A DNA stretch of 20,769 nucleotides from Chromera velia (lineage: Eukaryota > Sar > Chromeraceae): NCBI GenBank assembly GCA_018398765.1, contig JAHBMJ010000759.1:20001-40769 (forward strand), given 5' to 3'. Positions 4,850-19,046 of the stretch are shown here, piece by piece; the first letter of the stretch is position 1, and each line of letters opens with the position of its first letter. The notes beneath the pieces were generated by a model that was given only the letters and a program-made list of their open reading frames with translations, did no database searches and had not been told where the DNA came from. The position numbers and the translations under genes were made by a program.

Positions 4850-6532
4850 CCACAAACAGAATGGACTCTAAAGTAGGACTTAGTGGAATTCAAAGTGATT
4901 TTTAAATTTACTATATTCTAGCTTCATTATAAAATAAAACTAAGTTACTTAAAGCAATCTAGAGCCTTTTAAAGCATTTAAAATCGTTATTCCTGTGCGA
5001 ATCTGCTCAAATGTGCTCAAAAGACTGGTTGATTAGCTAGGGTGCATGGTAGGAAAAATTATGATCACCGCGGCACGTAGAAGTTAGTGAATGTTACCTA
5101 CAAAAAAATACATAGGCACAACACTAATGGATACGCTCAAAAGCAACGTTTAGCGCTGCCAATCAACTACAAAGAATTGCTTTTTCTGCAAGGGAAACAG
5201 TGCAGGAAAGAGGGTTTTACAGATAGGCTGGTCAGACCAGACAGGAGGCGGTCAGCAGGGGTTGGACAGGATTCTTCTTTTTACAAAGAAGTCATACCAT
5301 ACAGTGCAAAAGCTTGCAAATCGTTCTGCGTGTGTCAATAAAAAACTATGAAAAAGAAGAACAGGTCCGTAGGTAGATCCAGATGTTTAGACGGAGACCA
5401 GTACGGAGTGCCACAAATGAGAAAGGATGAACGAGTAAGGAACACTTACATCGGAATAGTATGGACCGCTTTCAAGGACTGACACACATGGAACAAGTGG
5501 AAGACATTCAAATGCATTAAAGCTAAGCAATTGGTCTGGGTAGAAAAATGTTTGGCACGACTGAGAGCTGTGTAAAGCTTCAGAAGAGGCGGTCAAAAAA
5601 TGGAGGCTCCAGCAGACTCTCCATCAACCCTCTCTCAGTGACCTCCCTTGTGCATTTCTGTCAAGCTCCTAACAGAACAAAGAAGCTGGATGTTAAGTAA
5701 ATCATCATGCAAAGCGAGAGAGCGAGCCGCGCTTCCTTAACTGACCTGCAGGTGTCCCCAAGTCTCCGTCCACCAACACCTGCAAATACGAAGGGACGGG
5801 CGTTCACGCTTTATGCAGTCAAGGAAGCACTTCTGTCTAGCTTATTCTGCGTGCATAAGGTTTCAAAGAAAAGACCAAGAGTCTAAGAAGCAGCGAGTCT
5901 GGACAGGCTAACCTGGGGGTTGACTGCGGGGCTCCCAAGACTGTGACCTGCAAGGAAGAGTAAGGAGAGCGATGAAGACAGCAGTACTTTAACACCTAGA
6001 TAAGGCCGGCAGCCCTTCCCCGCTTGAACAAGAGGAGCGGCAGCAAGCAGAAAGACGTTGAAAACAAGATCAAGACGGCTGGTCTCCACTAGATCCACCT
6101 GCAAGCTCCACTTCGTGCCGACCCGAGGTGACCCAGCAACTGTTGTTACAGCCGTCTCCTCCAGAGCTCCGAAAGTGCACTCCCGAAAAAAAAGTCAAAA
6201 CCGAGAAAACGCTCTGTCAAATATCTTCTAAAACCATCAGAAGACATCTGACAGAGCGTTTTTTGTGGTAACATTTCTGTGGGAAAAGTCCGTTTGTTCA
6301 GAGGTTCAGAACTCCACAGTTTTGAACCTGTGGACCTTCAAGACGGACAAGAGACTTCAGACCCGATTATTGGCCGACAGAGGCAAAGTCGGCTGCGTGC
6401 GTCGAAGGAGCAGGGTGCCGCCACCCCCTCTGGCCCCGTGGCGGCGCCTCCTGGAGTCCTGGACCCACGATAAGCCCATGTTTGGACCTGGCGGCGGGGG
6501 GGTTTGACCTCCCTGGCCTAAGGTTCAGAAGT
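4850..6532 (-). repeat. Left arm of giant inverted repeat
   Basis: Read on the minus strand, this arm matches 6537-8248 base by base around an axis at 6534/6535. The inner ~700 bp (5831-6532) are about 99% identical to the mirror. In the outer ~1 kb I counted 18 differences in 233 bp (4861-5093) and 23 in about 222 bp (5387-5608). Nearly all are transitions. Similarity fades at about 4850 (ACAGAATGGACTC against GAGTCCACTCTGT). The arm lacks a ~28-base stretch present in the right arm at about 7795-7823. Confidence 0.93.
6206..6262 (-). repeat. Mirror copy of nested 24-bp hairpin
   Basis: This is the left-arm counterpart of the hairpin at 6807-6863. Its two half-sites, around AACGCTCTGTC and GACAGAGCGTT, are each about 24 bases and are separated by about 9 bases. 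On the plus strand the two imperfect positions are A-C mismatches; on the minus strand they become G.U pairs. Confidence 0.8.
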
Positions 6533-6547
6533 CCGCACTTTTGAACC
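6522..6547. repeat. Palindrome axis: short self-complementary GGTTCA...TGAACC element
   Basis: The symmetry point of the large inverted repeat lies inside a short hairpin, GGTTCAGAAGT-CCGC-ACTTTTGAACC. Near-copies of it occur at about 6302-6327 (GGTTCAGAACTCC then ACAGTTTTGAACC) and, mirrored, at about 6741-6767. So the axis is itself a third member of a small self-complementary repeat spaced about 220 bp apart. Confidence 0.75.
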
Positions 6548-6806
6548 TTGGGCCAGGGGGGTCAAACCCCCCCGGCGCCAGGTCCAAACATGGGCTTATC
6601 GTGGGTCCAGGACTCCAGGAGGCGCCGCCACGGGGCCAGAGGGGGTGGCGGCACCCTGCTCCTTCGACGCACGCAGCCGACTTTGCCTCTGTCGGCCAAT
6701 AATCGGGTCTGAAGTCTCTTGTCCGTCTTGAAGGTCCACAGGTTCAAAACTGTGGAGTTCTGAACCTTTGAGCAAACGGACTTTTCCCACAGAAATGTTA
6801 CTACAA

Positions 6807-6863
6807 AAAACGCTCTGTCAGATGTCTTCTGATGGTTTTAGAAGATATTTGACAGAGCGTTTT
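6807..6863 (+). ncRNA. Nested hairpin, possible small-RNA precursor-like foldback
   Basis: The two 24-base half-sites, 6807-6830 and 6840-6863, are separated by a 9-base loop (GATGGTTTT). As RNA read on the plus strand, all 24 positions pair, with two G.U wobbles. The opposite strand would have two A-C mismatches. The size and wobble pattern resemble a miRNA-like foldback transcribed outward from the palindrome axis. It could equally be a solo miniature inverted-repeat element. The structure is directly visible; expression and processing are inference. Confidence 0.4.
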
Positions 6864-7121
6864 CTTGGTTTTGACTTTTTTTTCGGGAGTGCACTTTCGG
6901 AGCTCTGGAGGAGACGGCTGTAACAACAGTTGCTGGGTCACCTCGGGTCGGCACAAAGTGGAGCTTGCAGGTGGATCCAGTGGAGACCAGCCGTCTTGAT
7001 CTTGTTTTCAACGTCTTTCTGCTTGCTGCCGCTCCTCTTGTTCAAGCGGGGAAGGGCTGCCGGCCTTATCTAGGTGTTAAAGTACTGCTGTCTTCATCGC
7101 TCTCCTTACTCTTCCTTGCAG

Positions 7122-7156
7122 GTCACAGTCTTGGGAGCCCCGCAGTCAACCCCCAG
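7122..7156 (+). other. Putative 35-nt mini-exon (right arm)
   Basis: The segment is preceded by a pyrimidine-rich tract ending TTGCAG and followed by GTTAGC, i.e. canonical AG/GT boundaries. An exact mirror is present on the minus strand at 5913-5947. Both copies lie in the well-conserved inner part of the palindrome, so conservation here does not show selection. The segment could also be chance AG/GT in pyrimidine-rich DNA. Confidence 0.3.
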
Positions 7157-7289
7157 GTTAGCCTGTCCAGACTCGCTGCTTCTTAGACTCTTGGTCTTTT
7201 CTTTGAAACCTTATGCACGCAGAATAAGCTAGACAGAAGTGCTTCCTTGACTGCACAAAGCGTGAATGCCCGTCCCTCCGTCTTTGCAG

Positions 7290-7323
7290 GTGTTGGTGGA
7301 CGGAGACTTGGGGACACCTGCAG
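7290..7323 (+). other. Putative 34-nt mini-exon (right arm)
   Basis: The segment is bounded by CTTTGCAG upstream and GTCAGTTA downstream. Its minus-strand mirror, 5746-5779, is identical, although flanking bases (for example at 5782-5786 and 5816) differ between the arms. Its ends are also complementary (GCAGGTGT and ACACCTGC), so it could be a small foldback rather than an exon. The same donor, GTCAGTTA, follows the putative exon at 8285-8336. Confidence 0.35.
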
Positions 7324-8284
7324 GTCAGTTAAGGAAGTGCGGCTCGCTCTCTCACTTTACATAATGATTTACTTAGCATCCAGCTTCTTTGTTCTGCTAG
7401 GAGCTTGACAGAAACGCACAAGGGAGGTCACTGAGAGAGGGTCGATGGAGAGTCTGCTGGAGTCTCCATTTTTTGACTGCCTCTTCTCAAGCTTTGCACA
7501 GCTTTCAGTCGTGCCAGACATTTTTCCACCTAGACCAATCGCTCAGTTTTCATGCATTTGAATGTCTTCCACTTACTCCGTGTGTGTCAGTCTTTGAAAG
7601 CGGTCCATACTATCCCGACGCAAGTGTTCCTTACTTGTTTATCCTTTCCCATTTGTGGCACTCCATACTGGTCTCCGTCTAAACATCTGGATCTACCTAC
7701 GGACCTGTCTTTCTTTTTTACAGTTTTTTATTGACACACACAGAACGATTTGCAAGCTTTTGCACTGTATAGTATGACTTCTTTGTAAAAAGAATTATGT
7801 TGTCTCTGTGCTCTGTTCTTCGGAATCCTGTCCAACCCCTGCTGACCGCCTCCTGTCCGGTCTGACCAGCCTATCTGTAAAACCCTCTTTCCTGCACTGT
7901 TTCCCTTGCAGAAAAAGCAAGTCTTTGTAGTTGATTGGCGGTGCTAAACGTTGCTTTTGAGCGTATCCATTAGTGTTATGCCTGTGTATTTCTTTGCAGG
8001 TACCATTCACTAACTTCTACGTGCCGCGGTGATCATAATTTTTCCCACCGTACACCTTAGCTAATCAACCAGTCTTTTGAGCACATTTGAGCAGATTTGC
8101 ATAGGAGTAATGATTTTAAATGCTTTAAAAGACTTTAAATTGCTTTAAGCAACCTAGTTTTACTTTATAATGAAGCTAGAATATAGTAAATTTAAAAGTT
8201 ACTTTGAATTCCACTAAGTCCTACTTTGGAGTCCACTCTGTTCACAGTGTTGTTTCTTCTTTTTATGCTGTCTTGGAGCTTTAG

Positions 8285-9462: not shown

Positions 9463-9549
9463 CTAGGACCTGCGACGGACTGTTCTTCTAGTCAATGCAT
9501 GTTTGATGTGGCCTTTGATTTTTCTTTCTTTTCATCTATGGTAGACTAA

Positions 9550-11340
9550 ATGAGAGATGAGCTGGCAGGGTTGAATGACTGTCTTGATACTGATCTGAGG
9601 GATTATGGGGGCTTTGGCAGGGAGAGCGTGAGGCAAAGGATCAAGGCGGAGTTAGACTGTCTTACACTCAAGCTCGTTGGGTGCAGGATGCTTATTACAC
9701 TACTTGATGTGCATGGGGGGGAACCATATCCGGTCTGTGCACAGAGAGTGGAAACATGCAAATGCGCGTTGACAGTTGTCTTGGTTGCTAAGCCTTCCCA
9801 TCCTCCTTCGTACACTTTGAAGGTGATGCCGGCTTCTCCTGATGATCGATGTAGGGCATGGTCATACAGTCGGACCTTGTTCAGGAAAGGATGTCGATAA
9901 AAGATCATGAGGAGATTGATCCTGTTTCATTTTATCGCTGCTTCTGTCTGGCTTGAGTTGGAGAATAGTGCGTACAGTAAATATTTGAGGGAGGTGAGGA
10001 GTGCATGTAGAGAAACAGGTGGGCATGCTGGGTGGTAGGACAAGAAAGTGATTTACATGGTCTGGTCCCAATGGAAGAGAGGCCTATACCTTGGGAGTAT
10101 GGTGGGAATGGCGCTTGATCGCATCATGCAGCACTTCTATGTGGCTTTACGATCATGGAGGGGGGGTCGGGCAGCAAATAAATTTGGACGGGGGTATGCA
10201 CATCGTTTTTACTCAGTGCTGTCTAGTGATACTTCTCGTCATGCTCTTTTTGTTGTATTGCCTCTGGCATGGGTGAATGGTGGACAAATGAGTCTTTGTA
10301 TGATCGAATTGCTTTGTAATAGAGCGTATCAACCGATATGGAATACTGTGGGTGTCTCAAGGAAGGAAAGGAATGACCCTTCGATTGAACTGAAACCAGA
10401 ACGCTCCCGTCTGTCTGCCCGTGCGTGCAGGAGAGGTTCAGGTTACACTCAGCTGAGACACAAGCTTCGCTCCTCTCTGTGCATGACGAAGGAGTCGGAG
10501 GAACTTGAGAGGGGAGGTATTTTCCTCTTTCATGATGAATTTATGCAGAGGGTGGGTGGGAAAAGGGGGGATGAGTCTGGGGATGCATGTGTTTCTCTTT
10601 TTCGTGACAGACTTCTTGTAATGTTTTTTAAGAAGGTGCTTCCTGATAGGTCGATCAGATCTGTCAATGCCAGTAAGGATGATATCAAAGCATGTGTGAG
10701 GAAGGTTCTGAGAAGGGGAATTCTTGCTACAGGCAGACAGACATTCAACATGAACGTTAAACATCTGTGTGAACTGAATGGATGGTCAATGATGGAGATA
10801 CTGAAAGAGAAGTCGATCTTTATTCACCTTCTGCTTGCTGACTGTCCGAAGTTCAGGGTTTTTTACTTTCGTCAGTTCGAATTGATCAGAAAGGAAGTTG
10901 CTCCGCAGAGCTTAGTTCATCTAAAACTCTTGCCGTCAAAACTCAAGAACTTAAAACAGATGCTCGACAACACATACAAGGCTTGTTTTAATGCTCCTTT
11001 TGAATTGTATGGTAACTCACATGATGATTGCCCTTGCATTCAAATCGCTTAACTTCTCGATTTGCCCCTTCTAAAGGGATATGCATGTGCACTTCTTTCT
11101 TCTTCTCCATCTCTCCGTTCGCTTTTCTCTCTCCCTTTGAATTTCTCGTCTTTATATAAATTATGGCCAAACAGTGGATCGTGGGCAACGGTTGAGAAGG
11201 GGATTGACTTTTTTGTTTCTTTTCTTGTCTCCCCAAGGGGTTGTGGGAGGGGACGTCTCGGCGCTGCCCGGCATGGTCAGGGGAGGGGGGGTGATGGAGG
11301 TATGTCTGCGGCGGTTATGGCAGACCTAAGGGAGAGGTGG
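9550..11340 (+). pseudogene. N-terminal part of retroelement polyprotein, broken
   Basis: A single frame is open from ATG 9550 to about 11340 except for TAA at 9898, TAG at 10036 and TAA at 11050. The longest clear piece (ATG 10057 to 11052, about 331 codons) is basic, with many Arg and Lys residues, and ends near a DDCPC motif (about 11020-11034). A Cys-x-Cys cluster there, just ahead of the reverse transcriptase, could be part of a metal-binding segment; this is inference. I recognise no endonuclease signature (neither apurinic-type nor GIY-YIG). The frame shifts by one into the reverse-transcriptase frame around 11340-11370. Confidence 0.5.
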
Positions 11341-11356
11341 GTGACTACTCTTTTAT

Positions 11357-13237
11357 GTGCTCCATGCTCTGAGGAGGGGGCCTCCCCTTCCGAAGAAGGC
11401 TGGGATGGTGAAAAAGTTGTTAGATGTGTTGGCTGTTGTTCTAGTGGACAAGGCCCGAGGTGATCTAGCCTTTCTATGTGCATGGAAGTACAGTCAAGCT
11501 GTAAGAGCGGCTTTCATAGATAACCGATCGTATGCTGTCTTGCAACAAGTGGACCTTGATTGCGCTGTTAATGATCTGGCAAGTGGTATCGCGGACTAGT
11601 CTGCTGCCCTGAAGTCTTTTCTTTTACGTTTTGGTTCCTTGAATAGAAGGAAGCATCGTTTTGGGACTGGCCTTCTATGGGTAAAAAGGAAATCTTGGGG
11701 GGACGATGGTTGGTTGCCCACGGGCTAGTCGTTTATCGAATACCGCCCGCTCGTCTTGTATGCCTTGCATAGACGTAAGTCTCTCTTTTTCTTTGCATGT
11801 AAATGTCTAAATGGCCTGCTTCGTTACTTCAGTCCTCACTGTGACTTGAACTCAACTTTTTCTTTTCAGGAATGTGTGTCTGTATTCAACGCCGGGTATG
11901 GACGTTCCACTGATCGGTCCGAACAGCTTTTGCTGAAGCCTGACTGGCCTGTTGGTCACATTAAGATGGTAGTTGATGATATCAAGGCTTTTTTCCCCTC
12001 CCTCCCACGCGATGCCTTTCTGTTGTCACTTAGAAAATTCGTCGCGAGGGTGAAGGCAGAATCTCGACACAGATATATTGTTCTGCCGAAGTTCCGTCCT
12101 TTCTGTAAGAAGGAGGCTGGGGGGGCATGTGGAGAGGCATGGGTGTCACGCAGATAATATGTGAAGCCTGCTGCCTTCTTGTCCTCTCACAACAGATTTG
12201 CAGATGCCATCTCATGCCCTATTGATGTCCTACTGGAGATCGTTGACCTTGACTTTCGTACTAATCTGATTCATGTTCATGGACGACTGATTCGACAGAA
12301 GGAAGGCTTCCCTCAGGGGAGCCCATGCTCTCCTGGGAGGATGAGATTCTTTGCAGCCTGACAAGAGTTCTCGGTTGCTGATTCTTTCTCTGTTTCATCT
12401 TGGGAAGACAAGTCATGGTTTGGTGCACGATATATGGATGACCGCTCTCTTTTTGTTCGTTTTCCTGGCTGTGCTTCTTCTGATATAATGAGTCTTTGGG
12501 ACGGAGGCCCTCCTGCTTTACTTTTACAGGAAGATTTTTACAGTCCTGAATATGTCTTGGAAAGGCAGGGAGGCTCTACAGTGCTGGGGCTTTGGATTTT
12601 CTTTCTCCAACAGACATCCTCTGTTTTGCTTTTTGCAGCTGCAAACCCTAATCGGGATGCTCTCGTCGAATGGCATCATAACCTGTGTGCTTTTTCCTTT
12701 TCTTGCCTCCATGATTTCGATAATGCTCTTCCATTCCCTCCCTTCCCTACTCTGAAGAGAGTTAGATTCATCCATAGTTTTTCTTGTATTTCTCGGTTGC
12801 AGGGAATGATTGGACAGATGAGTTTGAATGTATTGCGTTCCTTGCTTTCCTGTAATGCCCCTGCTTGTGTTTTTATTGATGAACTGACTTTTCTTTTTTT
12901 TGAATGCTTTCTCCTTTGTTGGCCTTTTCGTTTTCTCGTGAAGGTTTTTTCTGATGTCATTGCTTGTTCGAGGAGTCCTTCGTTATCACATTATGGAATG
13001 AAACGACTTTCTTTCTTTTTACTGTTCTTGGTTGATTTTGTTATATTCCCTCCTTTGATGATTGATCTTCTTATATTCTTTCTTGCTTATACAATTGAGT
13101 GCACTATTCACCTGCTGGAAGCGATAGACAAAAGACAGCAGCAAAGAGGAAAAGGGGGTCGCGCGCGTCGGTTCTCATGCCTTGTCCTGTGCTTCTCGAT
13201 TGATCAGATGTTACATTCTTGGAGTCAGTCCGTCTGA
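11357..13237 (+). pseudogene. Reverse transcriptase (unusual, Penelope-like or related), decayed
   Basis: In one frame the polymerase motifs appear in order: a fingers-like YRPLV (about 11738-11756), motif A as DDIKAFFPSLP (about 11973-12005), motif B as GFPQGSPCSP (12305-12334), motif C as YMDD followed by Arg (12431-12442), and a GLxI box near 12585. The acidic residues of motifs A and C are present. Stops at 11597 (TAG), 11726 (TAG), 12155 (TAA) and 12359 (TGA) break the frame, so it cannot be functional as read. The last ~270 codons stay open to TGA 13237, with a thumb-like region (RVRFIHSFSC, LRSLLSCNAP) that is conserved in the second copy at 19428. The exact RT clade is not secure. Confidence 0.75.
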
Positions 13238-13585
13238 TATTGCATGCACGGTTCCGGTGTATCGGCATCATTGTATATACGATCAGACCCATGACTTCTT
13301 GTGAATGATGTGCATGTAGAAGGTGCATACATTAATTATTCACTTTTTTTTTTTTTCTGGCGTCCCCACCCGGATCGCAAAAAAGTGGAATTTTTTGCAT
13401 GCATTCTTTTTGCTCGACTATTTGACTTACCCAGAAGTGAGAGCATGCCGTCATATTGACCAATCTTGGAGATGGTGATTTCGGTAGAGTCCACCGTCGG
13501 TCCCTTAGTAAACAGTACGTGCATAGCAGGACTGTCTCGGCTGTTGGAAGAGAACTAATCATACTAGAACATTCTTAATTTGTTG

Positions 13586-14454
13586 CAGCTTTAAAATCTC
13601 AGTTAGCCGTTTTGCGTATTGGTTGATTTGCATGGAGATGCACACACAATGTTATATAGATAAACATATAGACCGCGGTACACTATTAGACCTTTGACCT
13701 CAATTTTCTCTTCACTTCGCTTGCTGAGTATCAACCACCACGTTGCTCAAGAGAGTCCAACCTAAGCTGCTTGCTGCGTAGCTTGTTTTTTCTTTCTTCT
13801 TTATGCTGCAAATCTATATGATTCCTTCATGAGTGCAGAATAACATGTGGATGTCTGCGTTTTACTATAAATTTTGTATGCATTCACTTGTATTTAGATG
13901 ATTTTGGCATACACATCAGAATAAAAACGAGTCTAACAGTTTGCGTCTGGCATGAGATTTCCAGGAACGATGTGTTGATGAAGTCATTATCAATCTGATG
14001 ATGTGTTAACTCTTTTAAAGGCGAAGCCCCCCTTATAGTTTGGCTTTCTGAACGTTTCGGAGCCCATTTTCTAAGTAAAGTTGACTGTTTAAAAATATGA
14101 GATTTTTACAAAAAGTTTTTAGTTGGACGAATGATACTGTTTGCACTAGGTTTTAGCCTTATATGCTAAAAATTTTATATTAGTATCGAAATTATCGATG
14201 ATACCCCCTTTTTTTGGAACGTTAAATTCCGATACGATACCGATACGATACCGATTCAATACCGATACGATACGATAGCTATCCCTACTCTTATGAAACA
14301 AAAACGCCGACCTCCTACGTTTTTGATCGATCAGCAAGTCGCTGAGCATCTCCATAATCTAGTGTCGTGCATGTGCGCTCACGCCGTATAGCTCATTACC
14401 TCTATACCCCGCCCTTCATAATAAAGAAAAAGAACTTAAAGTCTGACTACTAGT
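13586..14454. other. Gene-free stretch
   Basis: AT-rich sequence without a convincing open frame. It contains the CGATAC repeat at 14218-14285 and nothing else that I can name. Confidence 0.5.
14218..14285 (-). repeat. CGATAC dispersed repeat, copy 2 (inverted relative to 4345)
   Basis: A tandem of imperfect CGATACGATAC/CGATTCAATAC units ends in GATAGCTATCC. The reverse complement resembles 4335-4398, including the AGCTATC lead-in and the GTATCGGTATTG block. Together the two copies bracket the palindrome and the first retroelement. Confidence 0.6.
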
Positions 14455-15518
14455 ATGCCTGCTGGTGGAGCTATTGCATATCTAATTAACGTAAACCGTC
14501 CAATTCTCTATATGGTAGAAAACCCATTCCTAGTGTCCCCTTCGCGCATCAAAATCAACAGTACGTTAAAGAACCCAGACCGTAGACTAGACTAGTACCA
14601 TTTATGTTATCCGTGGGGTTTCAACATGATTTGCATCCTAGTACTTCCACCTGGGGTCACACAAACGCGGTTGGATCATTTAGAGCGGCTGCTTCTCGAT
14701 TTATTCAGTGACCATAAGCTCAAAAGCCTGGTCCGGCTTTTTGAATCCCGCCAAGAATGGATCATCAATGTTCCCTGCGCGCATGTATTAGCAACGTTCC
14801 GATCTTTTCGGGACCATATCGTAAAACAGCTCTATCGAATTGATAGCTATCTATTGTGGTCTGATATCCATTTCTTACCGGATTACGTCCTAGACTCTAG
14901 GCTGGAGGTAGTCTTTCCATCCAAATCATCAGCATGGTATGGTTTCGAGATGAACATAGAATCCCATCTCCCGTGAGTCTGCAGCCGTATGAAAAAGAGA
15001 CCAAGTTGAACCAAGCAGCCCGTGAGATCCCGTGAGCTACAGGAAAAGCAAGCAGTTGAACAAGTCAAAATGATGAGCCTTCAGGAAATTTGGTGGATGA
15101 CCGGCTTTGACTACCAAGCACCAGCTTCCGGAGACACTGATCTGCTCCGCCAGTACTTAAGAGCCAAGGGAGTATCGGTCAACATAAATCCTACGCTTAA
15201 CCTGTAGCAGTTTAAAGCTAGCATAGAAACGCACCTACAAGCAGACTCGGAGTGGGAGGTTAAGGAAATCCTAGATTTTTACGAAAGGCGTAATAGGTAC
15301 AAAGCCCGGTAGAAAGACTATCCACTAGGTGATGAAAACCCTCAATGGATCCTTACGGCTAACTTTCAAGGGACAAGCAACCAACTGCTTTTCAAATACC
15401 ACTACAAGGTCCGAAAAGATGTTCAGCTGCTTGATAAATAGCTTCAACTCCTAGACTTTGATCAATGGGAAGAAGAAGAAAGCTCACAACATCTCACAAC
15501 CAAGCTTGTCGAGAGTTA
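14455..15518 (+). pseudogene. Long unknown frame interrupted by four TAG codons
   Basis: Starting at ATG 14455 one frame reads as ordinary protein sequence to about 15518. The in-frame interruptions are TAG at 14593, 15205, 15310 and 15439. Between about 14974 and 15028 the coding sense moves to a second frame (TGA at 14974 in the first) and returns after a 10-base tandem duplication (CCCGTGAGAT followed by CCCGTGAGCT) near 15018-15037. Segments such as HLERLLLDLFSDHKLKSLVR and LQEIWWMTGFDYQAP look like folded protein. No known domain is recognised. It may be the first half of a larger element ORF continuing to about 16480. Decay by CAG-to-TAG or TGG-to-TAG transitions is the simplest explanation. 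Confidence 0.5.
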
Positions 15519-16480
15519 AGCTAGAGCCTCAGGCAGAAGCAAAATCTATTCCATCGAGACCAGGACCTCCAGAAAAACGTAGCTATGAACCTAAGTCGCT
15601 AGCTGACTGGACGCCTAGCTCTGAACTCGCAACATTCTTTCAGATGTCCATCCTACCACATCTTCAATTCGAGCTGGCTCAGTTATATCCTGCTCTAATG
15701 TCCCTTGTCGCTTTAAGCAGTCGCGATGAACGCATGATAACAGTGGCCGAACGCTCCTTAAAATATCTAATACGGTCTAACACGCATGATTCAAGCCACC
15801 GCTCTCCTTACATCACGGCACCAATGCTGACGACAGGCTCTGTAAGGATAGTGAAGAGACGGTCTCCCCCGGTTGAACAGGGAAAAGGCCTTGCTGCCTC
15901 ACGGCCGCTTTCTCCGCAGTGGATCACAGTCCGACGACGCTGACCAAGCTTAGCGACAGCTGGCACCCCTCTACCTGAAACGCACAGGAGCATTTGGAAA
16001 GAACTTCATGAATTTATGGAAGAAGAATACATTTGACGGACAGAGGTACAAGTTCTGATGATTCACGATGTCGAATGGAGCGTTCCACTCCTAGCCAGAC
16101 TAGGCATGGGCATGCATACAACCTCAAAGGCATATACAGGCTCGCGCTCTACCGCATCCACCTACGCACGCACCTGAAAACCATGCATGGCTACCGCTAA
16201 TGTATGCTGAAAAAATTTTGGGGCAAGACGACGCACACATAGAGCCTGCGTTCACTGACCGGAACTGGCGGAAGCCCCGAAGCTCTTGACTACTGACAGT
16301 TTGGCTACACCTTCATAGTGCTCCAGGCTTCGACGTTCAAGCTGCCAAGAAGGCCGTTGTGCATGTAATTCAGATAGGCTAAGCTTCAAGGGTTCCGCAG
16401 AGGTTGCGAGACTCGTCGCATTCCCGCAGAACGCGTGGGCGAGCCGCTTATTTCTTTTGACAGTGTTCACTCTACACGGG
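15519..16480 (+). pseudogene. Continuation of the unknown decayed frame
   Basis: After a probable frameshift near 15470-15520 the open sense continues in a second frame, whose ATG-initiated piece is 15458-15943. It has a Pro/Lys-rich hinge (RPGPPEKRSYEPKSLADW) and a helical part (LPHLQFELAQLYPALMSLVA). TGA codons occur at 15941 and 16034. After about 16160 a third frame carries plausible sequence (NHAWLPLMYAEKILGQDD) with further stops. Three frames used in order with few stops in each point to one ancient ORF of about 2 kb. I recognise no family; a transposon gag-like or accessory ORF is possible but unproven. Confidence 0.4.
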
Positions 16481-16837
16481 GCGCTCCTTCTTTGAACAGC
16501 TTACCTCCTTGCACATCGTCGAAAAAAGAAGCACAGCGTACAATCTAGTAGCGCAGGTTAACAACTTGAGGGAGTGGGAGCCAGGAAACACCGATTCAGT
16601 GCGTTTTGCAGCTCCAATCTGAGGTTCAGCTTGCAGCTATCAGCCCTGACAGAGAATGATTCCCCAAGATGTGAAAGTGAAAAAAAGATGGATCCTGATG
16701 ATGATGATTGAGGGTTAAATCCTAGATTTAGCGACGCCAAATCCCAAGCCACTAGCAAGGCTTTGAGGACAACCCAGAACACACATTCATAGGGGAGGGG
16801 GATGAGGAAGCCTGCATGCCAATCGGATCGATTCGCC
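16481..16837. other. Spacer; probable 3' untranslated tail of the minus-strand LINE
   Basis: No coding region. A TGATGATGATGATTG microsatellite at 16696-16710 lies about 130 bases downstream (on the minus strand) of the LINE stop codon. It could be the simple-repeat tail with which many LINEs end. Confidence 0.35.
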
Positions 16838-17884
16838 TCAACTTGCCTTATCGACAGAATGGACCTTCTTGAGACAGTCGGCTATAGCTTTGGAACCGCT
16901 TCTAGGCAGAATTGTGCACAACAGCAATACCATATCCTTCATTTTTTTCTTATTATCAGAAGTGCCCCTCCCGGTTGCACCTGCAACGCGTTGTGCGATC
17001 TGTATTCTTATGTCAATGGGTGCTTTCTGCTTCGCAATTTCGTACAGTTCTTTCAGCCTATTCTGTTCCCTTTCTATGTCCTTACATTCTGTCAGAACAT
17101 GAACCTCATCTTTGATCACACACGAGGGGGACAAACATTTATCGCACAGCCGTTCCGGTTGGGTTCTATCTATATCCCCCCCTGTGAGAGCCCTAAAAAA
17201 CGTACGAAAGCCTGCGGAGGACTGCAACAGACTCTTTGGCAGAGGTTCAACACTGCACTCTATCATTTTACTTCTCGGACGCCATTTCCTTTCACTCAGA
17301 AGGTGCATGGCCAAACGCTGTCTGGATGGATTCTCTGATTGGAAAGGGGAGAGATTCGCAAGGTGGGGAAAAATTCTATCTCTGTCTTTAACGTTTCTAG
17401 TTTCTTCTTTCAACCAGTCGGACAGCCAGGCACCCTCTACGATCTTTTTTGCCGCCCTTTTCCTTCTGCCCTTGCCCTTCCCTTTAAACTTGTTCCCCAC
17501 CGTGCTTGGCAATGGAGGCCACAAAAGGGAGCAATCTAATGGAACGGCCAGCCATTTTACTGTCTTAACGAAGGGTTCACATAAGCCAGCCAAGCACTCA
17601 TTCCATACTGCCCGGGGTAGAGCACGGTCGATCGATTTGATGCATTGGATGAAGCCCCCACTCAACTTACCAAGTAGAGAACTGAATGGCTCGAGAGAGA
17701 GAGAGAAAAGGGAAGGCGAAACAAAGGAGTGATGGGAGAGACCAAAACAACATCGAACAAAACGTAACTGTAATGCATCGAGGCAGGCAACATCTATCTT
17801 TCTCAGCGGGATCGTTTCCAGTCCATACAGCGCGACTGGCAGCCAGAGGGCCTTGAACAAAGTAATTTTAGAAAAGGGAGAAAC
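16838..17884 (-). pseudogene. LINE C-terminal region with Cys/His motif
   Basis: This frame, whose ATG-initiated part is 17860-16838 (340 codons), begins with LWLPVALYGLETIP and LDALQLRFVRCCFG, the conserved region after the reverse transcriptase in many LINEs. It ends with a CCHC-like C-x2-C-x11-H-x4-C motif (CDKC ... EVHVLTEC) about 80-100 residues before the end. A very basic block (GKGKGRRKRAAKK) lies near residue 130. It is open but lacks its own start context, and it joins the upstream polymerase part through a frameshift, so it is the tail of a broken polyprotein rather than a separate gene. The plus-strand frames over the same bases are antisense shadows. Confidence 0.75.
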
Positions 17885-18480
17885 AAAGCCCAGAGAAGAG
17901 AGAGCACTGCCCCCAAAGCCTTCTCTGCCGCCTCAATGCGGGTTTCGACTGTCCTGCTAAGGTCCCTGCCCTCAAAAACCCAGTTGCCCAAATACTTATA
18001 TTTACTCACCGCTTCCACTGGTCTGCCTTCATAAAGAAAAGGGGTCCGGGGCACTAGGTCGGGGTGGGGGGAGGAGAGACGCATAACTTTTGTCTTCTTT
18101 AAATTCACCTTCAGGCCGTGCTCCTTACAATAGTCCTCGAGGCGAGACAGGCGTTTCTGCAAGTCAGAAGCACTGTGAGCAAACAGAACAAGGTCGTCAG
18201 CCTATCCGATGCTTTCAATTAAAACGTCAGACAGTCTGACAGGAGTCTCTCCATCAGTACCCCCAGCCGAGCTTTGATTCCTGTTTTTATTATCGGAGCT
18301 GACAGACTTATGCAGATTGTTGATAAAAAGAAGAAAGAGGAGAGGCGTGTGGAGAACGCCCGTATGGAAGCAGCACAGTGGGAAGAGTATACGCACACTA
18401 AAGTACCCTGTGCAGGTCCTTCTGGGAGGAAACCTCGCCGATCCAATGCGAGTCACCGCTGGCAGAGCGCCCCAAAGCCC
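17885..18480 (-). pseudogene. LINE reverse-transcriptase palm/thumb, stop at catalytic box
   Basis: On the minus strand the frame reads LLFLLFINNL, then ESIG, a TAG (plus-strand bases 18202-18204), then ADDLVLFAHSASDLQ. In LINE enzymes the position before ADD is usually Tyr or Phe, so a nonsense codon sits exactly in the catalytic xADD box. The next segment, DYCKEHGLKVNLKKTKVM, and the later KYKYLG are the typical motif D and E neighbourhoods. The frame is lost near 17885-17905, where a one-base change shifts it into the frame of 16838-17860. Upstream, a HWIGEV segment in another frame suggests a further shift near 18430. Confidence 0.75.
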
Positions 18481-18944
18481 CCTTTCTCCTACAATCCGCG
18501 ATCCTCCACGCCGGCATGCAGTTGCGTCCGGCACTGCAAGAGCAGAATGAAAGATGTGTATGTAGCTGCAAGCCGAGCGGAAGTGCACACCTGCTGCCGA
18601 GAGGAGGTCCGCACCTCCCAGTGGCATGAAGAAGAGCGCAGCTGCCGAGCACAAATGCACCAGATTTGTGCATCTGCCGAAAAGAAGTGCGCACCTACTA
18701 CCTAGTTATAAAAAGAGTCTTTGATGATGGTAGCTTAAGAAGATGGATCACTGCGGATCATTGATTCACGTCTCTGAAGGAGTTCAAGTATAGTTGACCG
18801 AGTTTGGAGATTGAAATTAGAAAGGAGTTTGATTCAATTTGTTTTAATTTCTGAGGAGCAGGAAGCCTTCTCATTTTTCATCACTTTTCATGATTTTGCG
18901 CATTTCATTCACATCTTGTGTCATTCTTAGAAGTCGATAATGTT

Positions 18945-19020
18945 TGTCTGACTTTGAAAGTAAGTTGGTAAGATTTGTTTGACTTTCAAAGTAAGTCGGT
19001 ATAATTTGTTTGACTTTGAA
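18945..19020. repeat. 31-bp minisatellite, about 2.5 units
   Basis: TTTG(T/A)(C/T)TGACTTTGAAAGTAAGTTGG-type units begin with GACTTT at 18950, 18981 and 19012, an exact 31-base period. The first two units are near-identical; the third breaks off after GACTTTGAAAA. Confidence 0.8.
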
Positions 19021-19046
19021 AACCGATTAATCGAGTCCGCCCCAAT

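Follow-up and report, generated by a model that had tools for sequence, protein, structure and literature searches.

The 20,769-bp stretch of Chromera velia DNA analysed here, referred to as the window (contig C758, positions 20001-40769), contains a 3.4-kb palindrome at 4855-8242 with a 4-nt centre and with target-site duplications outside both ends. The inner parts of its two arms are homogenised by copying between the arms, and the mechanism of this copying is most likely gene conversion from a central break. The whole history proposed here, in which a transposon copy decayed by C>T changes and its inner arms were afterwards copied one onto the other, is considered likely. The parts of the palindrome are listed below.

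4851-4854, plus strand: left target-site duplication CACA
4855-6532, plus strand: left arm of the palindromic element, beginning with AACAGAATGGACTC (family start AACAGAGTGGACTC)
4855-5813, plus strand: outer part of the left arm, unhomogenised (mirror 7256-8242), 68 differences in 959 columns
5814-6532, plus strand: inner part of the left arm, homogenised (mirror 6537-7255), 10 differences in 719 columns and 25 shared derived changes in 711 scored
6206-6262, plus strand: 57-nt hairpin within the arm (mirror 6807-6863)
6302-6329, plus strand: 28-nt hairpin within the arm (mirror 6740-6767), resembling the central hairpin
6533-6536, no strand: 4-nt centre, apex of a short hairpin (6520-6549)
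6537-8242, minus strand: right arm, the inverted copy of the left arm by arm alignment
7795-7822, minus strand: 28 nt of the right arm that are absent after 5274 in the left arm
8243-8246, plus strand: right target-site duplication CACA

The whole genome (177.8 Mb in 4040 contigs) was searched with the left arm as query, giving at least 88 matches with 40 of the 255 candidate places scored. Scanning with a terminus pattern of 29 specified places, with at most 3 mismatches allowed, gave 247 matches genome-wide and 0 in the reversed control. The copies of the family share a sharp start at AACAGAGTGGACTC, and among the first 20 loci there were 10 with two convergent ends and 10 with one end. The set of 21 two-ended elements used below consists of the window element, the 10 two-ended loci of the first set and 10 pairs chosen among the terminus matches listed. 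An exact 4-bp target-site duplication was found in 15 of these 21 (8 of 11 in the first part and 7 of 10 in the second); three of the four bases match in L010, L014 and L061, and no matching duplication was observed in L020, L057 and L059. The element length in the second set ranges from 555 to 3698 bp, and a typical copy has one complete arm and a second arm shortened variably, to between 176 and about 1700 bp. The duplication of fixed 4-bp length, together with dispersed copies that have sharp common ends, is what characterises a TIR DNA transposon, and the anatomy is that of a predicted non-autonomous, foldback-like member of this class. Two ancestral end types (CTCC or CTCT start) were considered and dropped, because they differ at a C>T site and because all elements have arms at much the same distance from one another.

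For 6 of the 10 one-ended copies a partner end was looked for in the DNA that follows the arm, over some 5.5-10 kb or as far as the contig reached, and no inverted terminus was found at up to 10 mismatches in 30. Seven one-ended copies (L001, L007, L009, L013, L015, L016 and L017) pass into unrelated DNA without a matching duplication. They end within about 15 bp of one point (...CAAAACAGTC-CAGAACACCTTC), which is the 3' end of the arm plus a tail of about 100 nt and corresponds to the palindrome loop in two-ended copies. These seven copies may be products of one-sided deletion, loop cleavage or misassembly.

Short strong hairpins are present in each arm (6206-6262, 6302-6329, 6520-6549 and their mirrors), two of which resemble the hairpin at the palindrome centre, and in L012 the break of the second arm falls on the apex of this same hairpin. 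Folding of 6160-6350 gave z = -5.2, and the window had no Rfam match at the gathering threshold.

The full alignment of the arms (4855-6532 against 8242-6537) contains 78 differences in 1678 ungapped columns, namely 72 transitions and 6 transversions, so that the arms are indeed almost purely transitional, as a preliminary description from hand alignment had stated. Its segment counts were reproduced (18 transitions and no transversion in 233 columns, 21 and 2 in 222, 8 and 1 in 141, 3 and 0 in 157), with a total of 53 differences including 3 transversions against the 51 and about 3 given before; only the segment 6111-6267 was off, with 3 differences and not 2. The alignment has a single gap of 28 nt, at 7795-7822, for which a deletion in the left arm would be the simplest reading because L011 also has the 28 nt.

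The divergence along the arms is stepped rather than smooth and uniform. The best change point is at 5814 (mirror 7255), slightly further out than the break near 5830 and 7240 proposed before, with 68/959 (7.1%) outside and 10/719 (1.4%) inside, and its log-likelihood gain of 17.3 was equalled in none of 2000 permutations. Among 371 arm pairs taken from different elements the top gain was 11.1, and there the outer side was the less diverged one. The mean divergence between elements is 7.7% outside and 8.1% inside; the outer halves of the window element are 7.1% apart, compared with 6.15% and up to the nearest arms of other elements, and its inner halves are 1.4% apart, compared with 5.8% to the nearest other-element arm. 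The divergence step is a property of the window element. A second step within the outer part had no support (p=0.84), and a weaker step was found within the inner part (p=0.03), where 5814-6090 is identical over 277 bp and is followed by 10 differences in 442 columns, all of them located from 6091 inward. A further identical inner stretch spans 192 bp.

Relative to the family majority, C>T/G>A changes number 67 in one window arm and 65 in the other, against 3 and 4 T>C/A>G changes; the sum is 132:7, in which an inner change shared by the arms enters twice. This supports cytosine deamination as the mutator, as the preliminary description had suggested. Pooling 32 arms gave 1605 C>T and 297 T>C changes with a ts/tv of 6.3, and the arm pairs of 10 other elements gave 531:69 transitions to transversions, from which the 72:6 of the window is no different (p=0.44). 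Three other repeat families of the window have the same spectrum, by which a palindrome-specific mutator was ruled out. In repeat B (16838-18300, 10 copies) 236 of 262 changes are C>T, with a C>T:T>C of 236:12 and a ts/tv of 17.7; in repeat C (9500-13577, 6 copies) 596 of 786 are C>T, with a ts/tv of 13.3 and single pairs from 9.2 to 24.6; repeat D (14300-16700) gave 215:16 against its nearest copy and 278:70 against a more distant copy, and 161 of its 209 polarised changes are C>T. Since these three families and the ten other elements show the same excess, it is the norm for repeats here. The excess first noticed in the arms is thus real, yet the comparison with other repeat pairs places it near the norm for the repeats of this genome, and a mutator tied to these arms is contradicted by the 13-18:1 of the other window repeats.

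The 9500-13577 repeat is a high-copy repeat with 278 candidate places and a sharp common 3' end at about 13577, and its open frames had no Pfam matches. The 14300-16700 repeat belongs to an older, more divergent family (83 candidate places, 74-87% identity). The 16838-18300 repeat, on the minus strand, is recent, with 397 candidates whose best copies are 95-97% identical, and adjoins a weak reverse-transcriptase match (RVT_1, E 8e-4, below cut-off). Tandem arrays were observed at 2568-2848 (90-bp unit, 3.1 copies, beside an N run) and at 18931-19021 (31-bp unit, 2.9 copies).

The neighbouring-base context of the C>T changes was determined, and the order of the rates is CG > CA > CT/CC. The rates were 0.067, 0.043, 0.020 and 0.013 for CG, CA, CT and CC in repeat B, 0.097, 0.054, 0.035 and 0.037 in repeat C, and 0.112, 0.090, 0.043 and 0.044 in the arms of the palindrome family. 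The changes are not confined to CG, the CA rate being 0.55-0.8 of the CG rate, and they showed no preference for CHG over CHH. That the CA signal might be decayed CG was rejected, the mutated copies keeping A in 82/82 cases in repeat B, 198/203 in repeat C and 895/926 in the arms. A single-strand deaminase was rejected as well: adjacent changes lie on the same strand in 791 of 1572 cases in the arms (permutation mean 784) and in 109 of 226 in repeat B (110). The pattern fits a slow deamination of cytosine acting on double-stranded DNA, and the decaying cytosines are probably methylated.

It is rather unlikely that the transition excess is only a mutational bias of the whole genome with nothing specific to repeats. 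Three light-harvesting gene copies, compared in overlapping pairs, are transition-rich as well (13:1, 8:0 and 5:1), as such a bias predicts. By direction, however, their changes are 5 C>T and 8 T>C, in one small family with 14 polarised changes, against 132:7 in the window arms (Fisher p about 1e-6, with shared arm changes counted twice) and 236:12 in repeat B (p about 3e-7). In addition, C>T rates like those of the repeats would bring the GC content well under the 47% found in samples of flanking DNA.

To return to the palindrome, 25 derived changes are common to both arms in the 711 scored columns of the inner halves, 23 of them C>T, and 10 sites differ. Nine of these 10 differences are transitions; they divide into 4 and 6 private changes per arm, and 9 of the 10 are C>T. 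In the control, 46 pairings of a window arm with an arm of another element shared 5.1 derived changes on average and 9 at most. The count of 25/711 excludes gaps; 30 reference arms gave 24/711, and a majority in which gaps were counted gave 17/719. Only 4 of the 25 shared states are absent from other elements, and many occur there at lower frequency. The outer halves have 16 shared derived changes and 68 differing sites, and 74 control pairings gave a mean of 7.6 and a maximum of 15; the 16 against 15 suggests that the outer halves may not be wholly independent, with some older exchange.

The excess of shared derived changes beyond chance, in a tract bounded at 5814, is the signature of gene conversion. 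Since the inner arms have 25 shared derived changes and only 10 differences, the inner part had decayed before it was copied and is not young; the preliminary description had offered homogenisation or a younger inner part, and only the former holds. Private decay per arm is 0.7% inside and 3.6% outside, so that at a constant rate the copying came when about four-fifths of the decay had taken place. The inner decay before and after copying, (25-5.1)/711 + 0.7%, comes to about 3.5% and agrees with the 3.6% of outer private decay per arm. The copied tract includes the palindrome centre, which is why a central break is proposed. More than one copying event is possible, given the uneven inner tract.

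Palindromes are difficult to assemble, and an assembler might also have filled the palindrome centre with reads of one arm and so produced near-identical inner arms. The Chromera velia genome is a gap-filled short-read assembly (velvet k=71; PMC4501334), the identical inner stretches of 277 and 192 bp exceed that k-mer, and two of the 10 one-ended loci (L003 and L015) have long N runs after the arm, with the contig of L005 ending 22 bp past the arm. Against this, ten inner differences remain, nine of them transitions, and nine of the ten private changes are C>T, so both variants were seen. The assembly did resolve the arms of L006, L010, L018 and L019, which differ by 6-7% over inner stretches of similar extent, and therefore there is no reason for the window centre alone to collapse unless it was near-identical. 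An assembly artefact is accordingly judged improbable. About equally improbable is that the inner part arose later, as an extension of the right arm when the element was last copied, by a template switch in gap repair or transposition and not by conversion in place. The length of the second arm does vary among copies, as noted above, and Galileo has TIRs of variable length and a transfer of segments between them (PMC4168063). The 25 inner shared changes nevertheless predate the copy, and the outer arms, which sit in the same element, carry many more changes and have only 16 in common; copying at transposition needs a decayed donor, whose outer arms should share equally many changes. Gene conversion in place is the reading retained.

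The change-point test was applied across the family to the 16 of 21 elements with at least 300 comparable columns. A change point with p<0.05 was observed in 6 of the 16, where 0.8 would be expected. Low divergence lies inside in the window element, L008 (p<0.001) and L055 (p=0.025), and on the outer side in L006, L020 and L056, for which a central break alone is insufficient. In L056, 57 shared derived changes over 1040 columns stand against 20 differences, indicating that nearly the whole arm was overwritten late. With change points in 6 of 16 elements, inside or outside, arm-to-arm or ectopic exchange recurs in the family and its place varies.

In the transposons of vertebrates and plants, deamination of methylated cytosine produces a C>T excess that is highest at CG, affects both strands and is clock-like. 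All of these features are found here too, but there is a clear CA component and no preference of CHG over CHH, and, unlike in those systems, both C5-methyltransferase genes amenable to classification are DNMT2-like. The arms of sex-chromosome palindromes overwrite each other and are hence more alike than their age predicts. This is also true of the palindrome in the window, except that those palindromes have arms of many kb with genes and the tract here is short and lies by the centre of a 3.4-kb transposon copy. In Galileo of Drosophila, a P superfamily foldback element (PMC4168063, PMC2775673), most of the element consists of long inverted arms whose length varies, there is exchange between the arms, and one-ended copies occur beside two-ended ones, all as in the present family, which resembles the foldback-like Galileo also in that no coding capacity was found. 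The target-site duplication of 4 bp differs from the 7-8 bp given for Galileo (PMC4168063), the termini are different, and no internal tandem repeats are reported for the family here.

Fungal RIP (PMC9246332, PMC9998398) likewise changes C to T in repeats and counts CA among its favoured contexts, but here there are no bursts, the density is low and CG is at least as strong as CA; the host is not a fungus, and a RID/Masc1-like gene was not identified, in a search in which exons can be missed. The preliminary description had named a RIP-like process as a possible mutator, and a repeat-triggered mutator acting in bursts is very unlikely: it would account for the dominance of C>T in each of the four repeat families studied, also at CA sites with no decayed CG behind them (82/82 in repeat B), and for the missing C>T direction in the light-harvesting genes (a control of one family of three copies with 14 polarised changes), but the C>T load is even over 24 full-length arms (dispersion index 1.36, range 44-83) and low (about 60 per arm), there is no strand clustering, and the CG/CA order is also compatible with ordinary cytosine methylation.

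A profile search of the genome with PF00145, in which exons can be missed, gave 7 candidates and 4 matches on 3 contigs (C3982, C1092 and C675; L037-L040). Two C5-methyltransferase matches are closest to DNMT2 among PDB structures, and a fragment of a third matched nothing; DNMT2 is the only C5-methyltransferase type recognised in the genome search. The DNMT1-RFD profile had no match, and its control was silent as well. The genome further gave 58 light-harvesting matches and 11 alveolin-type matches, which suits Chromera velia, although the alveolin control also responded in Caulobacter. Among the papers found on Chromera velia DNA methylation and on RIP in alveolates, none reports a C>T decay of repeats there in its title or abstract. 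According to a review, RIP is the only known use of the mutagenic effect of methylation so far and may have evolved elsewhere (PMC9246332). It is a highly speculative idea that in Chromera velia, a photosynthetic alveolate, a DNMT2-family enzyme marks the repeats so that their CG and CA sites decay by C>T, as a slow RIP-like defence outside fungi that is partly undone or spread by the copying of palindrome arms.

In the history favoured here, a non-coding, DNA-transposon-like copy whose inverted arms are very long would have been inserted with the 4-bp duplication CACA. Both arms would then have decayed independently, almost wholly by C>T changes, which affect both strands and follow the order CG > CA > CT/CC, presumably by deamination of cytosine that was probably methylated. 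If the rate was constant, about four-fifths of today's private decay would already have been in place when one arm was copied onto the other, an overwriting of about 0.72 kb to either side of the centre. The trigger would most likely have been a break at the palindrome centre that was repaired from the opposite arm, with gene conversion spreading outward, a proposal based on the tract reaching the centre. The overwriting would have reset the inner divergence, followed by renewed private decay.

The directional C>T decay serves as a clock in each arm, and the order of events (insertion, decay, copying and renewed decay) is readable from sequence alone. With at least about 120 copies in one genome, arm-to-arm conversion becomes countable in this family. 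If methylation turns out to cause the decay at CG and CA, in a genome whose enzymes of this kind are all DNMT2-like, this would be a test of whether DNA can be a substrate of DNMT2.
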